64,000 nucleotides of DNA, taken from the NCBI RefSeq assembly GCF_023238445.1, contig NZ_CP096658.1, positions 1,736,001 through 1,800,000 of the forward strand. Direction: 5' to 3'. Positions 21,711 to 29,059 of this stretch are shown piece after piece. Source of the DNA: Halorussus gelatinilyticus. Lineage in GTDB: Archaea > Halobacteriota > Halobacteria > Halobacteriales > Haladaptataceae. The translations under genes and the position numbers were made by a program. Within the stretch, counting starts at the first letter, position 1; each line of letters starts with the position of its first letter. Below the pieces are notes generated by a model. It ran no database searches. It worked only from the letters and a program-made list of their open reading frames with translations, and had not been told where the DNA came from.

Positions 21711-23810
21711 CTAATACCGATTCAGATTCGCGTCCTCCCTCTCCGCCAGATACCCGCGAATCTCGCGCTCGCGCCATCCGAGCGGCGACAGAACGCTCTC
21801 GGCCGCGCAAATCACCTGCTCGGCGTAGTACTCCGCGTCGTACCCCTCGGCCTCACCGACGAGCGCCACTCGGCCCCGAGAGGATTTCGCGTCGTCCGCG
21901 ACGACGTACTCGACCGACTGCCCCGGCCGCACGTCGCGGCCCTCGTCGGCGGCCGATTTCAGCGCCGCGACCGTCCGCGTCGAGTGTCGGTACTCCTCGA
22001 CGTGCTTCGAGACCCGAGACGTGACCGCCAAGTCCTTCGGGTCCACGTCACCGTCTCGAAGCCGACGAACCGCCGCTCCTACACGGTCACAGACCGTCTC
22101 GGGCGACCGATGCTCGTCGTAGACCGCTATCAGCTCCCGCTGGACCTCGGCGACGAACGGCGACGTACTCCGCTGGCGACACTCGATACCCCGGAACTTG
22201 AACTCGTCTTCGTCCGCCACCGACCCGAAGTACTTCGTCAGTGCCCCGGCCTCGCTATCGCGTAACGGCACGAACGCCACCCAGTCGTACTCGGCTTCGT
22301 ACTCTAGCCGAATTCCTGCCTCGGCGGTAATCTCCTCGGCGAGCGCGTCCAGCGACTTCTGCTCGACGCCCTCCCGAGGAGTAACCCAGATGCTGTCCAC
22401 GATGCCGTGGACGACCCGCCACTCGCCGTCCTCAAGCCGCTCTTTGGTGTCGAGCAGAATTTCGCGGGCGAACGCGTTTATCGTCTCGTGGCACTCGATA
22501 CGCCCGAACTTCGCGTTCGAGAAGCCTTGATAGCCGAAGCACGAGACGAGAATCCACTTGATAGCGTCCGACCGACCTTCGAGTTCGGCAAGTCGCTCCT
22601 CGTCGTCGGTCTCTCGAATCTCGGCCTTGATGTCGTCGCGAGCATTGATGAGTGGCTGTAGTACGTCCGGCAGGTACCCGCGCTTGTCGCAGATGCAGTA
22701 CCCAAGCCCCGGTACGTCCTCGCGTTCGCTGTGACAGTTACACCGAACCTTCTCGGGCGAGACGTTGTACTCGCAGATGATGTTCGGGTAGAGCGACGAG
22801 AAGTCGAGTTCGTGAACGTCGTCGTGAACGTCCACGTTGGGGGAGAACGTGAACCCGCCGCGGTCGGCGTCGTTCAACTGCCGCATCGTCTTGAACTGCT
22901 CGGGCCGCCACGCCTGCCACGGGACCAGTACGTCGCGAGATAGCGCCTCGCGTATCTGAATCGCCGTCAGGACATTCCCGATGGACGCCCACGAGAGTTC
23001 CTGCAACGGCTTTCCAGAGCGTCGCACGAGGTCGATACAGCCCGCGATATTCGTCTCGTCGTAGAAGAACGTGTTCGACCTGTCGATTACCACTCGTCCG
23101 GGCACGTTGTACCGGGCGGGCGAATGTCCGACCCGTCCGTAGCTGGTGTAGGTCGATTCCCGAGCGAGTTGCTGGAAGCCCGGTCGCCGTCCGAGTTGCA
23201 GGTCGTAGCGGAGTCGGTCGGCCAGTGAGTGCAACTCTGCGAGAAGTTTCGCCGAGTCTACGACCAACACGTCCGGGTCCTCGCGGGCGACGATCTCCTC
23301 GACGCGCGGCAACGCACGGTCGGGCGACCGACCTACCCGTTCGCCGCCGACCGACAACGCGGGCACCTCCTCGTCTTCGAATTCGTGCGCTCGCCCTTCG
23401 ATAGCGAGCGTCGAGACCCTCCGCTCGGGCGCTGGCGAACGACCTGTTTCGAGGCAGTAGCGGAATTCTCGCGAGAAATCGACGTTGAAACAGCGGTACT
23501 CGCCGGGGTCGCCCCGCTCGTGAAGCCAGCGGGCGAGTCGTGAGACCTCTTCGACTGTCGTCACATCGACGCGAACCATTGCTTCGGCGTCGTGGCGGAA
23601 GCCCGGCCGCCACTCCTCGACGCTCGTCCGGGCGACCGTGAGGAACTGGTCGAGCGTCGCCTGCGCGTCCGCGAGCGACTGCTCGTCGCCCTCGCCGCGG
23701 CCGACGTAGAACGTCGGCGTGTAATCCTGCACGCGCTCGCTCGTCGCGCCCTCCTCGGTCAGCGTCCACTCGACCACTTCGCCGTCGAAGAAGTCGATTT
23801 TGTAGGCCAT
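21711..23810 (-). CDS. polB2: Family B DNA polymerase, PolB2 type, with altered motif C
   Basis: A 699-residue polymerase. Motif A is LDFSSLYPNI (Asp336), and motif B lies in KWILVSCFGYQGF (418-430). Motif C is GIVDSIW (469-475), keeping only one Asp (472) where replicative enzymes have YGDTDS. The exonuclease region is degenerate: the first exo motif is replaced by STLAIEG. Four cysteines (357, 359, 372, 374) between motifs A and B could bind a metal. These traits match archaeal PolB2, long considered inactive but shown in Sulfolobales to support damage-induced mutagenic synthesis. It ends a three-gene operon with a RecA-fold protein and a small helical protein. Confidence 0.85.
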   Translation of the reverse strand: MAYKIDFFDGEVVEWTLTEEGATSERVQDYTPTFYVGRGEGDEQSLADAQATLDQFLTVARTSVEEWRPGFRHDAEAMVRVDVTTVEEVSRLARWLHERGDPGEYRCFNVDFSREFRYCLETGRSPAPERRVSTLAIEGRAHEFEDEEVPALSVGGERVGRSPDRALPRVEEIVAREDPDVLVVDSAKLLAELHSLADRLRYDLQLGRRPGFQQLARESTYTSYGRVGHSPARYNVPGRVVIDRSNTFFYDETNIAGCIDLVRRSGKPLQELSWASIGNVLTAIQIREALSRDVLVPWQAWRPEQFKTMRQLNDADRGGFTFSPNVDVHDDVHELDFSSLYPNIICEYNVSPEKVRCNCHSEREDVPGLGYCICDKRGYLPDVLQPLINARDDIKAEIRETDDEERLAELEGRSDAIKWILVSCFGYQGFSNAKFGRIECHETINAFAREILLDTKERLEDGEWRVVHGIVDSIWVTPREGVEQKSLDALAEEITAEAGIRLEYEAEYDWVAFVPLRDSEAGALTKYFGSVADEDEFKFRGIECRQRSTSPFVAEVQRELIAVYDEHRSPETVCDRVGAAVRRLRDGDVDPKDLAVTSRVSKHVEEYRHSTRTVAALKSAADEGRDVRPGQSVEYVVADDAKSSRGRVALVGEAEGYDAEYYAEQVICAAESVLSPLGWREREIRGYLAEREDANLNRY

Positions 23811-23814
23811 CTGT

Positions 23815-24099
23815 CTACGACGCCGCGTCGTCTGCCTCGGTCGCCTCGGAGCGTCCGCCCTCGAGTTCTGCTTCGAGGTCCTCGATACGCTTCTCCTGGG
23901 CGAGGAGCATCGAGAAGAGGACGACGACCATCGGGTTCTGGTGGTTCAAGTAGCCGCCCGCGTCGGCGTGCTGGCGGGCGTCCTCCCAGAGGCGGTCGAA
24001 GCGGTCTTGGTCCGGACGGCGGAGTGCCCGGCGGTAGTCCTGCCAGTCGTCTTCGAGCGACGTGAGTAGGTCGCGGAACGTCGGGTTAGTACGCCCCAT
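23815..24099 (-). CDS. Small helical protein of the PolB2 operon
   Basis: A 94-residue protein started at 24099 (MGRTNPTFRDLLTSLEDDWQ). It has two helical parts: a charged N-terminal half with DRFDRLWEDARQHADAGGYL, and a C-terminal coiled-coil-like MLLAQEKRIEDLEAELEGG. It overlaps the end of the RecA-fold gene by 14 bases and stops four bases before polB2, so translational coupling across all three is likely. I recognise no characterised family. The position suggests an adaptor between the other two products. Confidence 0.75.
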   Translation of the reverse strand: MGRTNPTFRDLLTSLEDDWQDYRRALRRPDQDRFDRLWEDARQHADAGGYLNHQNPMVVVLFSMLLAQEKRIEDLEAELEGGRSEATEADDAAS

Positions 24100-24778
24100 G
24101 CGCCACCTCCGGCGTCGTGGTCGTCTCGGCCGCCGACACGCGTGCTTCGAGGACACACCGCCAGAACGAAAGCGTCGTCTGGACCGTGCCGTCCTCCATC
24201 GGGTAGACCAGCGTCTCGAACTCGTCGCCGACGAACCGCGGTCCGAATTTCGTCTGCTCGCAGCGAATCGTCTCGGTGGCGGCCGCGGCGAGCGGGTCTG
24301 AGAACGAATCCTGCTTCGAACGCGTGACGAGAACCGGCACGTCGTACTCGTCGGCGACGCTCGCGACGGTCGCCAGCGCCCGGAGGAATAGCTCGTCGCC
24401 CTCGTCAGCATAGGTCTCGGTGTCGCGGTAGAAGTGGTCGAACGCCGGGCAGACGACGAGTGACGTGTCCTCGTCTACTTGCTCCGGAAGCCTGCGAACG
24501 AGACTGTAGTGCTGGTAGGCGGTGAACCCGCGGGCGACCCGAATCCGGTCGAGCGTCCGCCCGCTCGGTGCGAGTGAGGCCAGCGACTGCGAGACCGCGT
24601 GACCCGCCGCGTCTACCCACACCGCGTTTCCATCGTTCATCAGGAGGTGGTCGAGGACGAGCGAGTGGAGCGGCCCAGTCGCTCGCTCGTCGCCGTCCAC
24701 GTCGAGGAGACGGACGCCCGTCTCTAACTCGGGTAGCTCCGGATCTGCTCTCCCACCGTTTTGACCTCTCGGGTGCAT
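24086..24778 (-). CDS. RecA-superfamily protein of the PolB2 operon, lacking a P-loop
   Basis: A 230-residue protein starting MHPRGQNGGRADPELPEL. The pattern (strand SLVLDHLLM, later TSLVVCPAFDHFYRD, then VPVLVTRSKQD, and an FGPRFVG segment) resembles the RadA/RadC-like paralogues of archaea. The usual Walker A GxxxxGKT is absent; the corresponding loop reads GDERATGPLHS. It may bind DNA or RadA filaments without hydrolysing ATP, as ImuA/SulA-like proteins do in bacterial mutasomes. It is the first gene of the operon, behind a TATA box and a tandem operator. Confidence 0.7.
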   Translation of the reverse strand: MHPRGQNGGRADPELPELETGVRLLDVDGDERATGPLHSLVLDHLLMNDGNAVWVDAAGHAVSQSLASLAPSGRTLDRIRVARGFTAYQHYSLVRRLPEQVDEDTSLVVCPAFDHFYRDTETYADEGDELFLRALATVASVADEYDVPVLVTRSKQDSFSDPLAAAATETIRCEQTKFGPRFVGDEFETLVYPMEDGTVQTTLSFWRCVLEARVSAAETTTTPEVAHGAY

Positions 24779-24802: not shown

Positions 24803-24808
24803 GTTAAG
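24803..24808 (-). promoter_or_regulatory. TATA-like element of the PolB2 operon
   Basis: On the minus strand CTTAAC lies 25-30 bases before the first ATG at 24778. No Shine-Dalgarno precedes the ATG, suggesting a leaderless mRNA. Confidence 0.4.
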
Positions 24809-24821
24809 CGTCGGCGCGCGG

Positions 24822-24841
24822 CTTCCAGAAGTTCCGAGAAC
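24822..24841 (-). promoter_or_regulatory. Tandem 10-bp operator, proximal site of the PolB2 operon
   Basis: On the plus strand the site reads CTTCCAGAAG followed directly by TTCCGAGAAC. The first unit has the palindromic core TTC-CA-GAA; the second is a looser match. It ends 13 bases upstream of the TATA-like element. A matching tandem site stands 11 bases from the TATA element of the Orc-like gene at 29 kb. Confidence 0.55.
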
Positions 24842-24895
24842 GGCGGTCTCCTTGGGAGGAGGCCCACACAGGCTGATAGCTCTAGTGAACGGAGG

Positions 24896-24915
24896 TTTCC
24901 AGAAGTTACCAGAAA
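24896..24915 (-). promoter_or_regulatory. Tandem 10-bp operator, distal site of the PolB2 operon
   Basis: TTTCCAGAAG is followed directly by TTACCAGAAA, flanked by an outer GTTTC/GAAAC inverted repeat. It lies 55 bases upstream of the proximal site. Confidence 0.5.
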
Positions 24916-25043
24916 CGAAAACGGATTCTGACTATCCAGCCACTGCCAGTGGCTGGAGAACACGCTTCGTTATCGAATCTTTCCGCCGAAACTTGACCGT
25001 AGTATTGCTAAATACGTGGTGCGAATTCATCGTGTCGATAGGG

Positions 25044-25275
25044 GGCACTGTCTAGATAAGGGAAACCGATAGACGGTGGGATGATGAATCAGTCGCAGCG
25101 CCCGTGAAATCGGTGTCTAATTGATGATACGATGCACCGCTAAGCCATGAGCAACGTGAATTCGGCGATCTCACCAAACACCTCACGTGAGATTCAGAAA
25201 GCTGCTCCATTCAGCCATGGTCGGAGAAGCGCTGTACCACCCGCCTACTCCAGAATCGCTTAACTAGACAGTGCC
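25044..25275 (+). mobile_element. 232-bp MITE, copy 1 (IS6-like ends)
   Basis: The element begins GGCACTGTCTAGATAAG and ends CTTAACTAGACAGTGCC, a 17-base terminal inverted repeat with one mismatch. It is flanked by a perfect 8-bp direct repeat CGATAGGG (25036-25043 and 25276-25283). It has no coding capacity. Read in reverse it matches the copy at 44763-44994 with one difference that I can find. The ends and the 8-bp duplication fit haloarchaeal IS6-family elements, which would supply the transposase in trans. Confidence 0.88.
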
Positions 25276-25422
25276 CGATAGGGGATAGTGACGGTTTGTA
25301 GTAGCAATCCACCGCGTTGTTGACCACTTTTCTCCAGCGACTACCACTCCAATTAGCAGGTTCACCAACTCAGCTGAACAACTGGTCGAAAAACATACCT
25401 GTTCAGTCGTGTTACTGGAGGT

Positions 25423-26502
25423 GTGCCAGACTGGACTCGGAGAGAACTACTCAAGGGAGTACCAGCCAGTATTAGTGTCCTCTCCGGATGCAGTCAATTT
25501 CCTGCTTCGTGGAGAGATGCAACGCCAGATTATACGTGGCAACAAAACGGCGAAGACCAAACCGTAGAGCTACTGGTGACTCAGAGCACGGTCTACACCA
25601 TCTGCTACCGATGTGAGTTCGGAACTCGTGCGCTCAATCGCCAGACCGGAGAACAGGAATGGACGTTCTCGGCCCCACGCGAATTGTTTACCGGCACGGC
25701 GACAGAACAAGTCGTCTACGTCGCTGGCAAAGATGGAGTCTTCGCACTCGATGCCGACACCGGGGAGCAATACTGGCACTATCCGACAGAAGAAACGGTC
25801 CGGACGCCGCCAGCAGTTGGGACTGAGTCAGTATACATCCGAAGCTACGACAGCACGTTGCACGCGGTTGATACTGCAACAGGCACCCGACGCTGGCAGA
25901 CAGCGCTCTCTGTCACGGGTGGAACCGCTCCGATGGCAATCGAGGATGGATTGGTCTACGTCGGGAGCGTTGGTAACGTCGTTTATGCGTTCGACAGCGA
26001 AACTGGACGCAAGCAATGGACGTTTACTGTCCAAGAGGATATCAGGCTCTCATCAACTCTTGCGAGTGAGACTCTGTACGTAGCCAGCGAGAACATTTAT
26101 GCACTTAATCCAAAGACTGGGACAGCTCGGTGGGAGTATACACCGAAAAGCGAACTTGGTTCGTTACTGTTGGTAGCGGAGAATCGAGTTTACGTTGGTG
26201 GACGGAATATCGTGGCCCTCGATGCATCGAGTGGAGAAAACCAATGGGGATTTCGTCTCCCAACTGAAGAAGGACTTCTTGGATTTTTAGGACTGGTTGA
26301 GAAGACGCTCTACGGATGGAATAGCCGGTATCTGTTTGCGTTCGATGTTGACCGTGCTGAGCTTCAGTGGCGAACAGAGGATATTGCAGAGTACAATTTC
26401 AAGCTTGTCACGATGTATGACGAGACGTTCTACTTCGTGACCCACGGTGAAGACATCTATGCCCTTCCGCTTCGCGAAGCAGAACGAGTATGGGGGAAAT
26501 GA
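25423..26502 (+). CDS. Tat lipoprotein with PQQ-type beta-propeller repeats
   Basis: A 359-residue protein with a GTG start and the signal TRRELLKGVPASISVLSGCS. The rest is a beta-propeller of the BamB/PQQ-repeat kind. Repeats of about 40 residues each contain a strand such as VVYVAGKDGVFALDADTGEQ or VYVGSVGNVVYAFDSETGRK followed by W. At least seven W-ending blades can be counted (EWTF, YWHY, RWQT, QWTF, RWEY, QWGF, QWRT). It is a surface scaffold or sensor of unknown partner. Its codons are clearly richer in A/T than those of neighbours, suggesting recent acquisition together with the adjacent MITE. Confidence 0.82.
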   Translation: MPDWTRRELLKGVPASISVLSGCSQFPASWRDATPDYTWQQNGEDQTVELLVTQSTVYTICYRCEFGTRALNRQTGEQEWTFSAPRELFTGTATEQVVYVAGKDGVFALDADTGEQYWHYPTEETVRTPPAVGTESVYIRSYDSTLHAVDTATGTRRWQTALSVTGGTAPMAIEDGLVYVGSVGNVVYAFDSETGRKQWTFTVQEDIRLSSTLASETLYVASENIYALNPKTGTARWEYTPKSELGSLLLVAENRVYVGGRNIVALDASSGENQWGFRLPTEEGLLGFLGLVEKTLYGWNSRYLFAFDVDRAELQWRTEDIAEYNFKLVTMYDETFYFVTHGEDIYALPLREAERVWGK

Positions 26503-26603
26503 ACGAAACGGAACGCCGAGCGGTGTAGCGCTTAATTCACGCTCTGTATCTTGCGACAGTTGAACCGACAATACTGGACAAGACGCCGTGCTACGAATTA
26601 CGG

Positions 26604-27296
26604 CTAACTCCCGAACTCGTCAAACCCAACCTGCTCGCCGATGTCGATCTCCTCGATGACCTCGGCCGAGTCGTTTGCGGGATTGTTCACCTTTTTCGAG
26701 ACGGGGTATGCCCGGAGTTCGTCAGGCCGGTACGGGTCAAGGACGGCCTGTAACTCTTCTTCGTCGTCGGCCGAGAGCCACGTCTGCTCGTCGCTCGCTT
26801 CGAGCATCACCGGCATCCGGTCGTGAATCGGTTCGACTACCTCGTTCGCGTCGGTCGTGATGATAGTCACGGTCTCCCGCGTCGTGTCTGCCGAGTCGCC
26901 CCACGTCTCCCAGAGTCCAGCGAACGCGAACGGCCGGTCGTCAGTCTGTGTAATCCGGTAGGGTCGTTTCGACCCGCGCTGGCCCTTCCACTCGTAGAAG
27001 CCGTCGGCGAGGACGAGACACCGCCGCTTGGCGAAGGCGTCGCGGAACATCGGCTTCTCCGCGACCGTCTCGGCACGAGCGTTGATGGGCGTCGGCGCGT
27101 CGTCCGGATCGTCCACTCACGCCGGAAGCAAGCCCCACTCGAACTGGGCGATTTCGTCCGCGTGGTCGTTCGTAATCGTTGCGAGGTCGTCGCCCGGCGC
27201 GATGTTGTACCGCGGCGTGATGGGTTCGATCGCCTCGGCGTCGAATTGCTCTTCGAGGACCGACTGAGGGACGAACAGCGAGGTTCGGCCACACAT
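26604..27296 (-). pseudogene. SRAP/HMCES-like (YedK) DNA-protein crosslink gene, interrupted by TGA at codon 60
   Basis: Reading from the ATG at 27296 the protein opens MCGRTSLFVPQSVLEEQF with the catalytic Cys2, continues through RYNIAPGDD, and reaches WGLLPA followed by TGA (27117-27119). The same frame then resumes VDDPDDAPTPINARAET with all later family features: NARAE, GFYEWK and the His in EPIHDRMPVML. The expected residue at the stop is Trp, so a single TGG-to-TGA change explains it. SRAP proteins covalently shield abasic sites in single-stranded DNA. Restart at the GTG after the stop would lose Cys2. Sequence error is possible. Confidence 0.85.
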
Positions 27297-27410
27297 GTCT
27301 CGTTAGTCGCGCTCCGAAGTATTAGGTACTCGCTCGTGTCTGCGGATAGAACGAGAAGCGTCCCGAGAATAGCGCAAAACACATCCTATATACATAAATA
27401 AACTTACTTG

Positions 27411-27887
27411 TTAGTCGAATCGGCCAGAGTTGTCCGTCGAACTAACTTGATAAGAAAAGTCACCGGACGCATATTCAACTCCCCCTAAGACACTATCGTA
27501 CTCCCTCTCAGGTGGTGACGGGTTGAATGGAATCCGCCCACCAGTCTCGGGTACCGCGCCGTCAAGTGTGAACTCGACCAAGTAGTAGACCGATTCGGTG
27601 AAGATATTCTTGAACGTCTGCGTTTCACCGGGGGTGACCGACGAGGTAGCTGTCAACGTGCGTTGCTGAGGTGGCACGGATACGTCGCCAGCAACCTCGT
27701 ACTCTTCTGCTGTCACAGACTTCGACCCGACATCTACAACAGAAATACCGATTACGTGAGGGAGGTTATCTTGATTCACGAATTGGAGACTCCCGGCCGG
27801 AATATCGTCGCTGAGGAACTCAGAACACCCAGCAAGACCTGTGATACTGAGCGCACCGAATGACGATAAAAACATACGGCGGTTCAT
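27411..27887 (-). CDS. Small Tat lipoprotein, function unknown
   Basis: A 158-residue protein started at 27887, giving MNRRMFLSSFGALSITGLAG with the lipobox ending in Cys. The longer frame upstream is Arg/Ser-rich and non-coding. The mature part looks like one small beta-rich domain (GSLQFVNQDNLPHVIGISVV ... YYLVEFTLDGAVPETGG), resembling secreted haloarchaeal Ig-like proteins. Base composition is lower in GC than the surrounding core genes. It lies directly downstream of the broken Orc-like gene on the same strand. Confidence 0.7.
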   Translation of the reverse strand: MNRRMFLSSFGALSITGLAGCSEFLSDDIPAGSLQFVNQDNLPHVIGISVVDVGSKSVTAEEYEVAGDVSVPPQQRTLTATSSVTPGETQTFKNIFTESVYYLVEFTLDGAVPETGGRIPFNPSPPEREYDSVLGGVEYASGDFSYQVSSTDNSGRFD

Positions 27888-27972
27888 ATACAAGGGTTGT
27901 AGAAATATGTTATGTGTTTTTTGTGTTCCTCGGGCTGGAGAGTGACTGACCTGATTCCATCCGTAGATTTGC

Positions 27973-28997
27973 TCACTCGATAGTGTCGAACGTCTCCGAG
28001 ACTGACCGATACGTCCGGTCGCGACTCGTTCCCTCCGCCTCGATGATGTCGTACTGGTCCATCTTCGAGAGGTAGTTTCGGACCGTCCGGTCGGTCTTTG
28101 GGTCGTCCATGCGCTCGCGGTACTCCTCGTACAGCGCGCTCGGCGAAATCGCGTCACGTTCCTCGATAATCTCGTAGAGGGTCTTCTGGTGGGGCGTCAG
28201 CGTCTCCACGTCTTTCTCGTGGCGCTCGGCGCGGGCTTCCGGAATCGAGGCGTCCAGAATCTCGTCGGTAATCGCCGACTCGTACTCTTGATGCGCCTGT
28301 CGCGCAGCCGTCCGCAGGATACTCAGTGCGACGCGAGCGTCGCCTGCGGCGGCGTCGGCGATGGTCGCCAACTGGCCGCGCTCGATAGCGCCCTCTTCGA
28401 GACCCCACTTCACGCGAGCGTCCATGATGGACACCAGTTCCTCGGAGTCGTAGCGGTCGAATCGAACGCGCTCGCACCCGGTGAGCCGACTGGTCAGACG
28501 CTCGTCGGCGTTGGCGAACAGTTCCCGCTCGGGTTGGCGATGAGCAGCATCGAGAACTGCGGGAGTTCGTGAAGCGTGTAGAGCAGGCGTTTGTCTTCGA
28601 GTTGGTCGGCTTCGTCGAGGATGACGACGCACGGTGGGCCATCGTACGTTCGCAACCGCTCGAAGAGTTCGTCGCGCGGCGTCGATTGGCGGTGGATGTC
28701 CACCGTCTTGCCGAGACCTTCCAGAATCCGGTAGAGCGTCCGAAACTCGGAGAAGTTCTGCCAGCAGTTGACGTACTGGTACTCCACGTCGAGGATTTCT
28801 TGGCGCAACTGTTCGGCGGTGTACTTGGCGAGACAGGTCTTGCCGACGCCCGAGGGACCGAGGAGAAGCGTGGTGTCGGCGGGGTTGCCGTCGGTCAGCG
28901 GTGCGAGGATTTCGGTGAGATGGGTGACTTCGGCGTCGCGGTGTTCGACTTCTCGGGGGACGAAGCCAGTCCGGAGGACCCGAGCGTCGGTTATCAT
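27973..28997 (-). pseudogene. Orc1/Cdc6-like AAA+ gene with a one-base frameshift
   Basis: From the ATG at 28997 ([20 protein letters not shown]) the frame encodes Walker A GPSGVGKT and Walker B VVILDEAD and reaches LLIAN. At 28531-28532 one base is missing: the next family segment, [16 protein letters not shown], continues in another frame with the AAA+ lid and a C-terminal winged helix (LYEEYRERMDDPKTDRTVRN) to the stop at 27973. Restored length is about 345 residues, typical of accessory haloarchaeal Orc proteins. The clean single-base loss may be real decay or a read error. It has no origin-like repeat array beside it, only a tandem operator in its promoter. Confidence 0.85.
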
Positions 28998-29022
28998 TGC
29001 TTCGGGTATCAAGTTCTCGGGA

Positions 29023-29028
29023 CTTAAG
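29023..29028 (-). promoter_or_regulatory. TATA-like element of the Orc-like gene
   Basis: On the minus strand CTTAAG is 26-31 bases before the ATG at 28997, the same relative place as in the PolB2 operon promoter. Confidence 0.4.
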
Positions 29029-29039
29029 CAAGCGGGTCG

Positions 29040-29059
29040 TTTCCGGAAGTTTCCAGAAG
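29040..29059 (-). promoter_or_regulatory. Tandem 10-bp operator of the Orc-like gene
   Basis: TTTCCGGAAG is followed directly by TTTCCAGAAG. Each unit has a TTCCRGAA palindromic core, and the two are exactly one helical turn apart. It ends 11 bases upstream of the TATA-like element. The same arrangement precedes the PolB2 operon. Confidence 0.6.

Follow-up and report, generated by a model that had tools for sequence, protein, structure and literature searches.

A tandem GGAA operator shared by the PolB2 operon and a linked Orc/Cdc6-family gene in haloarchaea

Why should a gene of the Orc/Cdc6 family, whose products ordinarily initiate DNA replication, accompany a DNA polymerase operon in haloarchaea? 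The question is raised by a 64,000-nucleotide stretch of Halorussus gelatinilyticus DNA (NZ_CP096658.1, positions 1,736,001 to 1,800,000; hereafter the window), in which an Orc-like gene lies near an operon encoding a RadA/RadB-like protein, a small protein and a PolB2 family polymerase. Haloarchaea possess many Orc/Cdc6 genes, most of which have no tie to an origin and are of unknown function (PMC7776575). The PolB2 operon and its neighbourhood, comprising an inactive RadA, arCOG07300 and the Orc/Cdc6 family arORC2, were described by Makarova et al. (2014, PMC4104785), and linkage of polB2 to the Orc5 clade in Halobacterium and Haloarcula, function unknown, by Berquist et al. (2007, PMC1906834); we infer that the two descriptions cover the same set. 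Here we describe a tandem GGAA sequence that stands ahead of both transcription units. We propose, with a probability of roughly 0.74, that these sites are the operators through which a dedicated control unit regulates itself, and in which arORC2 would serve not as an initiator but as a regulator of itself and of the PolB2 operon.

Three tandem sites at two promoters of the window

A preliminary description of the window had reported three tandem sites, and a recount confirmed all of them, on the minus strand. The operator of the arORC2 gene (29040..29059) reads TTCTGGAAACTTCCGGAAACGACCC with a period of 10 bp, its first half-site lying at -61. The distal site of the PolB2 operon (24896..24915; TTCTGGTAACTTCTGGAA) also has a 10-bp period and is positioned 75 bp upstream of the promoter-proximal site (24822..24841). 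The latter reads GTTCTCGGAACTTCTGGAAG in the orientation of the operon and has its first half-site at -61 from the ATG; its best register is 9 bp (TCTCGGAAcTTCTGGAA), so that the 10-bp register first described holds for the distal and orc sites and not for this one. Each promoter contains a TATA-like element, read from the sequence on the minus strand: CTTAAC at 24803..24808 for the PolB2 operon, aligned with CTTAW in orthologues, and CTTAAG at 29023..29028 for arORC2. The operator stands 13 bases before CTTAAC and 11 before CTTAAG, in agreement with the 11 to 13 bases originally given, and both elements are found about 25 bases ahead of their respective ATGs (24778 and 28997), at the spacing that had been claimed.

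Searching the window with TTCCRGAANTTNCCNGAA and permitting up to 3 mismatches gave 7 matches where 1.4 were expected, a number reached in 0 of 100 shuffles. The single 10-bp unit was observed 7 times in the window against 5.1 expected, which is not significant; only the tandem is. The whole genome is a single contig of 3.67 Mb. Pattern searches of it that allowed TTCCRGAANTTNCCRGAA, 18 bp long, no more than 1 mismatch found these three sites only, and the reversed pattern gave no match even at up to 2 mismatches. The motif is not at background frequency, which was one of the checks proposed in the preliminary description.

Conservation and specificity among relatives

The search was extended to a sample of 145 genomes of the order (Halobacteriales). 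Protein searches found PolB2 in 93 of these and arORC2-type proteins in 109, the latter counted at E ≤ 1e-45, a cut that lets in some more distant Orc paralogues. Among 97 distinct arORC2 promoters (genes at least 46% identical), GGAA was present between -66 and -40 in 89, as against 9% of random stretches; the element in the promoter of the arORC2 gene itself is a GGAA box and not ANTTTC. A strict tandem was found in 50 arORC2 promoters, compared with 0.6% of random 95-bp stretches, and its distance to the TATA-like element was 12 to 15 bp in 48 of the 50. The weights of the half-sites were picked after viewing the sequences, and they also served to measure the background rates. A 9-bp period is the usual one in relatives, and GGAA is invariant in both halves over 48 strict period-9 orc promoters.

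Within the genus, and in many lineages besides, promoters of RadA-like genes have a CTTAW TATA-like element preceded, at a distance of about 12 bp, by two GGAA half-sites, and a GGAA box is located at about -61 upstream of arORC2-linked PolB2 operons. Conservation upstream of polB2-operon and orc orthologues at fixed spacing, proposed as a check in the preliminary description, was found for both genes. The two-site layout (proximal at -61, distal at -136/-137) is common to the window, seven relatives of the genus and one locus from another family, that is, to all 9 of the 9 loci inspected. In this genus the two sites are 75-76 bp apart and enclose a spacer of 57-59 bp, which has a mean ungapped identity of 32% among eight genus loci; a spacing that stays fixed while the sequence in between diverges points to a role for both sites. 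Three operons with the 94-aa protein and a gene in the RadA-like position but without an adjacent polB2 (on G016:C3, G021:C9 and G026:C1) keep both the operator and an arORC2 gene.

A scan of the 145 genomes with WTCGGAANNWTCGGAAAC, in which genes were not preselected, returned 19 matches; the reversed control returned 0. Ten were in arORC2 promoters and two in PolB2-operon promoters (12 of 19, a concentration of the kind the preliminary description had asked about), one lay inside a coding frame and one was unclear. The remainder preceded a 182-aa protein (2) or a conserved hairpin followed by a recombinase-like open reading frame (3). Within the genus, exact TTCYGGAANTTCYGGAA matches placed on genes all belonged to promoters of arORC2 or RadA-like operons, three of these operons being without polB2.

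The conserved protein of about 182 aa (MTDDDPPEPDEVLASATERLEN...), preceded by a GGAA tandem in G077 and G063, has no Pfam match and is a further candidate target. In G118, G077 and G041, the GGAA tandem stands before a strongly folding conserved sequence, ACCGACGGACAGC...GGCGCG...GAGTCCG, and then the recombinase-like frame. Searches against Rfam and for tRNAs gave no match of substance at this locus; the hairpin is possibly a regulated RNA or the leader of a mobile element.

Half-sites vary by lineage (TTCYGGAA, TATCGGAA, TTTCGGAA and others). The arORC2 and PolB2 promoters of one genome were more alike than those of shuffled pairings, both for 19 pairs (p < 0.0002) and for 12 lineage representatives (p = 0.0006). 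Idiosyncratic variants are also shared, with TTCTGGCA at both promoters of locus L097 and AAACGGAA at both promoters of L155; physical linkage alone does not make two different promoters alike. At the level of sequence it is established that the operator is shared, stands at a fixed position, is conserved and is specific.

arORC2 as the candidate regulator

The Orc-like gene of the window (27973..28997, minus strand) belongs to the polB2-linked arORC2 family of Makarova et al. It consists of two overlapping frames, with a frameshift near 28494-28554; TIGR02928 matches both pieces, and these share 96% and 88% identity with an intact orthologue. Together with it on the minus strand lie the three genes of the operon. 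The first, at 24086..24778, encodes the RadA/RadB-like protein of the RecA superfamily (a weak NCBIfam TIGR02237 match, and orthologues). The second, at 23815..24099, encodes the 94-aa protein, for which orthologues were found and which, by a position and size matching arCOG07300 of the published operon, is probably arCOG07300-like. PolB2 follows at 21711..23810 (NF004418, 1053 bits over residues 1-699; Pfam DNA_pol_B). Between the operon and arORC2 is a gene for an SOS response-associated peptidase (SRAP; 26604..27297, minus strand; Pfam SRAP, 2e-56), frameshifted at about 27117. The upstream sequence of SRAP in the window has no operator of the GGAA-tandem kind, and SRAP was rejected as a third target. 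An extension of the operator to radA and SRAP, suggested at the outset, was not seen, the three sites of this genome serving polB2 and orc only. The frameshifts in arORC2 and SRAP may be real decay or sequencing or assembly indels.

It is likely that arORC2 is itself the protein that binds the operator. The intact Halorussus orthologue was aligned by phmmer to Aeropyrum pernix ORC1 (2v1u) across the AAA+ and winged-helix domains (residues 7-329), and the Walker A motif is intact in 67 of 67 arORC2 proteins. Another Orc protein, encoded in the genome of the window, has the same best match; this comparison covers solved structures only and is uninformative on Orc1-2 orthology. As we envisage it, arORC2 would bind TWYYGGAA half-sites repeated in tandem at an interval of about one helical turn. 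These stand directly ahead of the transcription factor B recognition element (BRE) and TATA element, both in the promoter of arORC2 itself and in that of the operon for the RadA-like protein, the small protein and PolB2, and arORC2 would most likely activate both promoters. In this genus, action at the PolB2 operon would proceed via both of its sites, 75-76 bp from each other. A location ahead of BRE/TATA, together with the Sulfolobus precedent considered below, favours activation and autoregulation; activation of the two promoters by arORC2 is probable, and DNA damage is a somewhat less secure, though still favoured, trigger. A search of the open-licence literature found no damage transcriptomes for these genes. 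In the preliminary description, both the PolB2 operon and the orc gene were proposed to be under the control of the Orc-like protein or of some shared regulator, and the tests of specificity, conservation and spacing support this.

The operator might instead be bound by a different shared regulator, an unlinked helix-turn-helix factor or another Orc paralogue, with arORC2 as just one of its targets. At least seven further Orc/Cdc6 proteins are encoded in the genome, a few of the PolB2 operons that possess the operator lack an arORC2 gene within 20 kb, and the operator also precedes unrelated genes in four genomes. However, every genome with such extra targets also encodes an arORC2-type protein, solitary arORC2 genes distant from polB2 still possess the operator (in five genomes), and operator variants go with the clade of the arORC2 protein and not with the family of the host; we regard a different regulator as unlikely. 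A very improbable alternative is that the sites are not operators but origin recognition boxes (ORBs) of an arORC2-dependent replication origin. Haloarchaeal orc genes do often adjoin origins, and the CGGAAAC core is common to ORBs and operator (published ORB-like TAACAGCGGAAACAGTGGGG, PMC3528665). Haloarchaeal ORBs, though, have a G-string and inverted repeats, whereas a G/C run of 5 occurs in just 4 of the 97 arORC2 promoters (75 bp viewed) and the sites are direct tandems at a fixed TATA distance, present also ahead of the PolB2 operon. With the G-string absent and the geometry wrong, the origin reading was rejected. Chance, or a likeness of core promoters without any dedicated regulator, would account for single units being no rarer than expected in the window, but hardly for a tandem found nowhere else in the genome, for 19 matches against 0 in the control, or for GGAA being invariant in both halves while PolB2 promoters of the ACTTTC type described below lack the tandem; its likelihood is negligible.

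Several observations weigh against regulation by arORC2 as proposed. The gene is frameshifted in this assembly, and its promoter is physically linked to that of PolB2, so some co-inheritance is expected. Additionally, most arORC2 promoters of a large plasmid-borne clade have just one TTCCGGAAAC box and no strict tandem; the member of this clade in the tractable host Halobacterium NRC-1, VNG_RS10865 on pNRC200 (probably the gene called orc9), has the promoter box TTTCCGGAAACGACCC. A final point concerns wing residue 327, which lies between two arginines and is D or N in 37 of 43 proteins with C-type half-sites but in 0 of 31 with T-type. This association, strong in raw counts, speaks for arORC2 as the binder, but it is phylogenetically clumped, the tree showing 3-4 changes. 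A prediction fixed before the genes were fetched proved right in 9 of 14 cases, 4 of the 5 failures being from one clade. On the outcome of this blind test and the paucity of tree changes, a one-residue recognition code was rejected.

ACTTTC elements and known systems

Ten haloarchaeal PolB2 operons bear, instead of the GGAA operator, TTTCACTTTCA (10 or 11 of 11 matches), which is the haloarchaeal ultraviolet-B (UV-B) box (Boubriak et al. 2008, PMC2556686). ACTTTC was present in 10 of 10 promoters of this class and in 0 of 43 of two GGAA classes (A and P), the operator classes and their cut-offs having been set after inspection. Operons of the GGAA type were linked to arORC2 in 33 cases and unlinked in 8, compared with 0 and 10, respectively, for the TTTCACTTTCA type (Fisher p = 3e-6). 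There are five class switches on the PolB2 tree; the independent pairs are all in the expected direction and too few for significance.

On the methanogen side, ACTTTC was found in 11 of 13 PolB2 promoter regions, versus 6% at random; in 3 of these 11 it falls just downstream of the assumed start codon, which casts doubt either on the start call or on the role of the box. The methanogen-side PolB2 loci showed no linked arORC2 that was convincing. At eight loci, the sequence upstream of RadA-like genes contains ACTTTC, often as (C)ACTTTCAC followed by CCCGC; in this, the methanogen-side boxes resemble both the ANTTTC element of Sulfolobus and the UV-B box of haloarchaea. At the PolB2 promoter of the window the best match to TTTCACTTTCA is only 7 of 11, and elsewhere in the genome the box occurs at four places. 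At locus L131 (G000:C1:1447507), TTTCACTTTCA lies 58 bp upstream of the start codon of a gene whose product, by eye, resembles replication protein A.

These distributions suggest that, of the two PolB2 elements, ACTTTC came first and was replaced by GGAA. We give even odds to a fuller scenario, in which ancestral PolB2 operons were under an ACTTTC damage element common to Crenarchaeota, methanogens and the Orc-unlinked haloarchaeal copies. In haloarchaea this would have been replaced, repeatedly or by transfer, by a portable pair made up of an Orc/Cdc6 paralogue that had become a transcription factor and its tandem GGAA operator, spreading on megaplasmids and now also driving a few other genes. 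The preliminary description saw in the operator a haloarchaeal counterpart of the Sulfolobus ANTTTC element, with which ACTTTC is a fit (PMC5817253). Since an ACTTTC box exists at PolB2 operons of methanogens and at others of haloarchaea, the GGAA operator looks like a replacement rather than a direct counterpart.

The shared operator offers a testable answer to the linkage of polB2 and orc, namely that the paralogue regulates transcription of a damage-polymerase operon, and would explain the frequent co-occurrence of arORC2 and the PolB2 operon. If true, the idea of Orc as regulator holds beyond Sulfolobus, in Euryarchaeota too, though with another DNA code, and a single operon has undergone a regulator swap between ACTTTC and GGAA elements. 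The operator had been thought not to be described before, and in the open-licence literature we likewise found no prior description.

In Sulfolobus, regulation of the PolB2 (dpo2) operon by the Orc1-2 system is known. Dpo2 is induced by damage (PMC7390963), Orc1-2 binds its own promoter and requires the wing arginines R381 and R383 (PMC9738581), and the ANTTTC element lies upstream of the BRE (PMC5817253).

The genes and linkage seen here are those of Makarova et al. and Berquist et al., who report linkage only; the shared operator and its regulatory reading are added here. The haloarchaeal UV-B box system likewise places a box upstream of TATA at damage-related genes, with a sequence that is unrelated to the GGAA tandem and absent at the PolB2 operon of the window. 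Haloarchaeal ORBs (PMC3528665) have a CGGAAAC core beside an orc gene, as here; by contrast, the present sites have no G-string, are direct tandems and not inverted repeats, occupy a promoter position and occur also at a non-orc operon. Sulfolobus Orc1-2 is, as proposed for arORC2, an Orc/Cdc6-family regulator with an element in its own promoter just upstream of BRE/TATA, and the AAA+ and winged-helix architecture of such a regulator is present in arORC2. The element here is a tandem GGAA rather than ANTTTC, ACTTTC occurring in 0 of the 43 GGAA-type promoters, and the target set, known here from sequence alone, seemingly comprises few genes, as against the hundreds of the Orc1-2 regulon.

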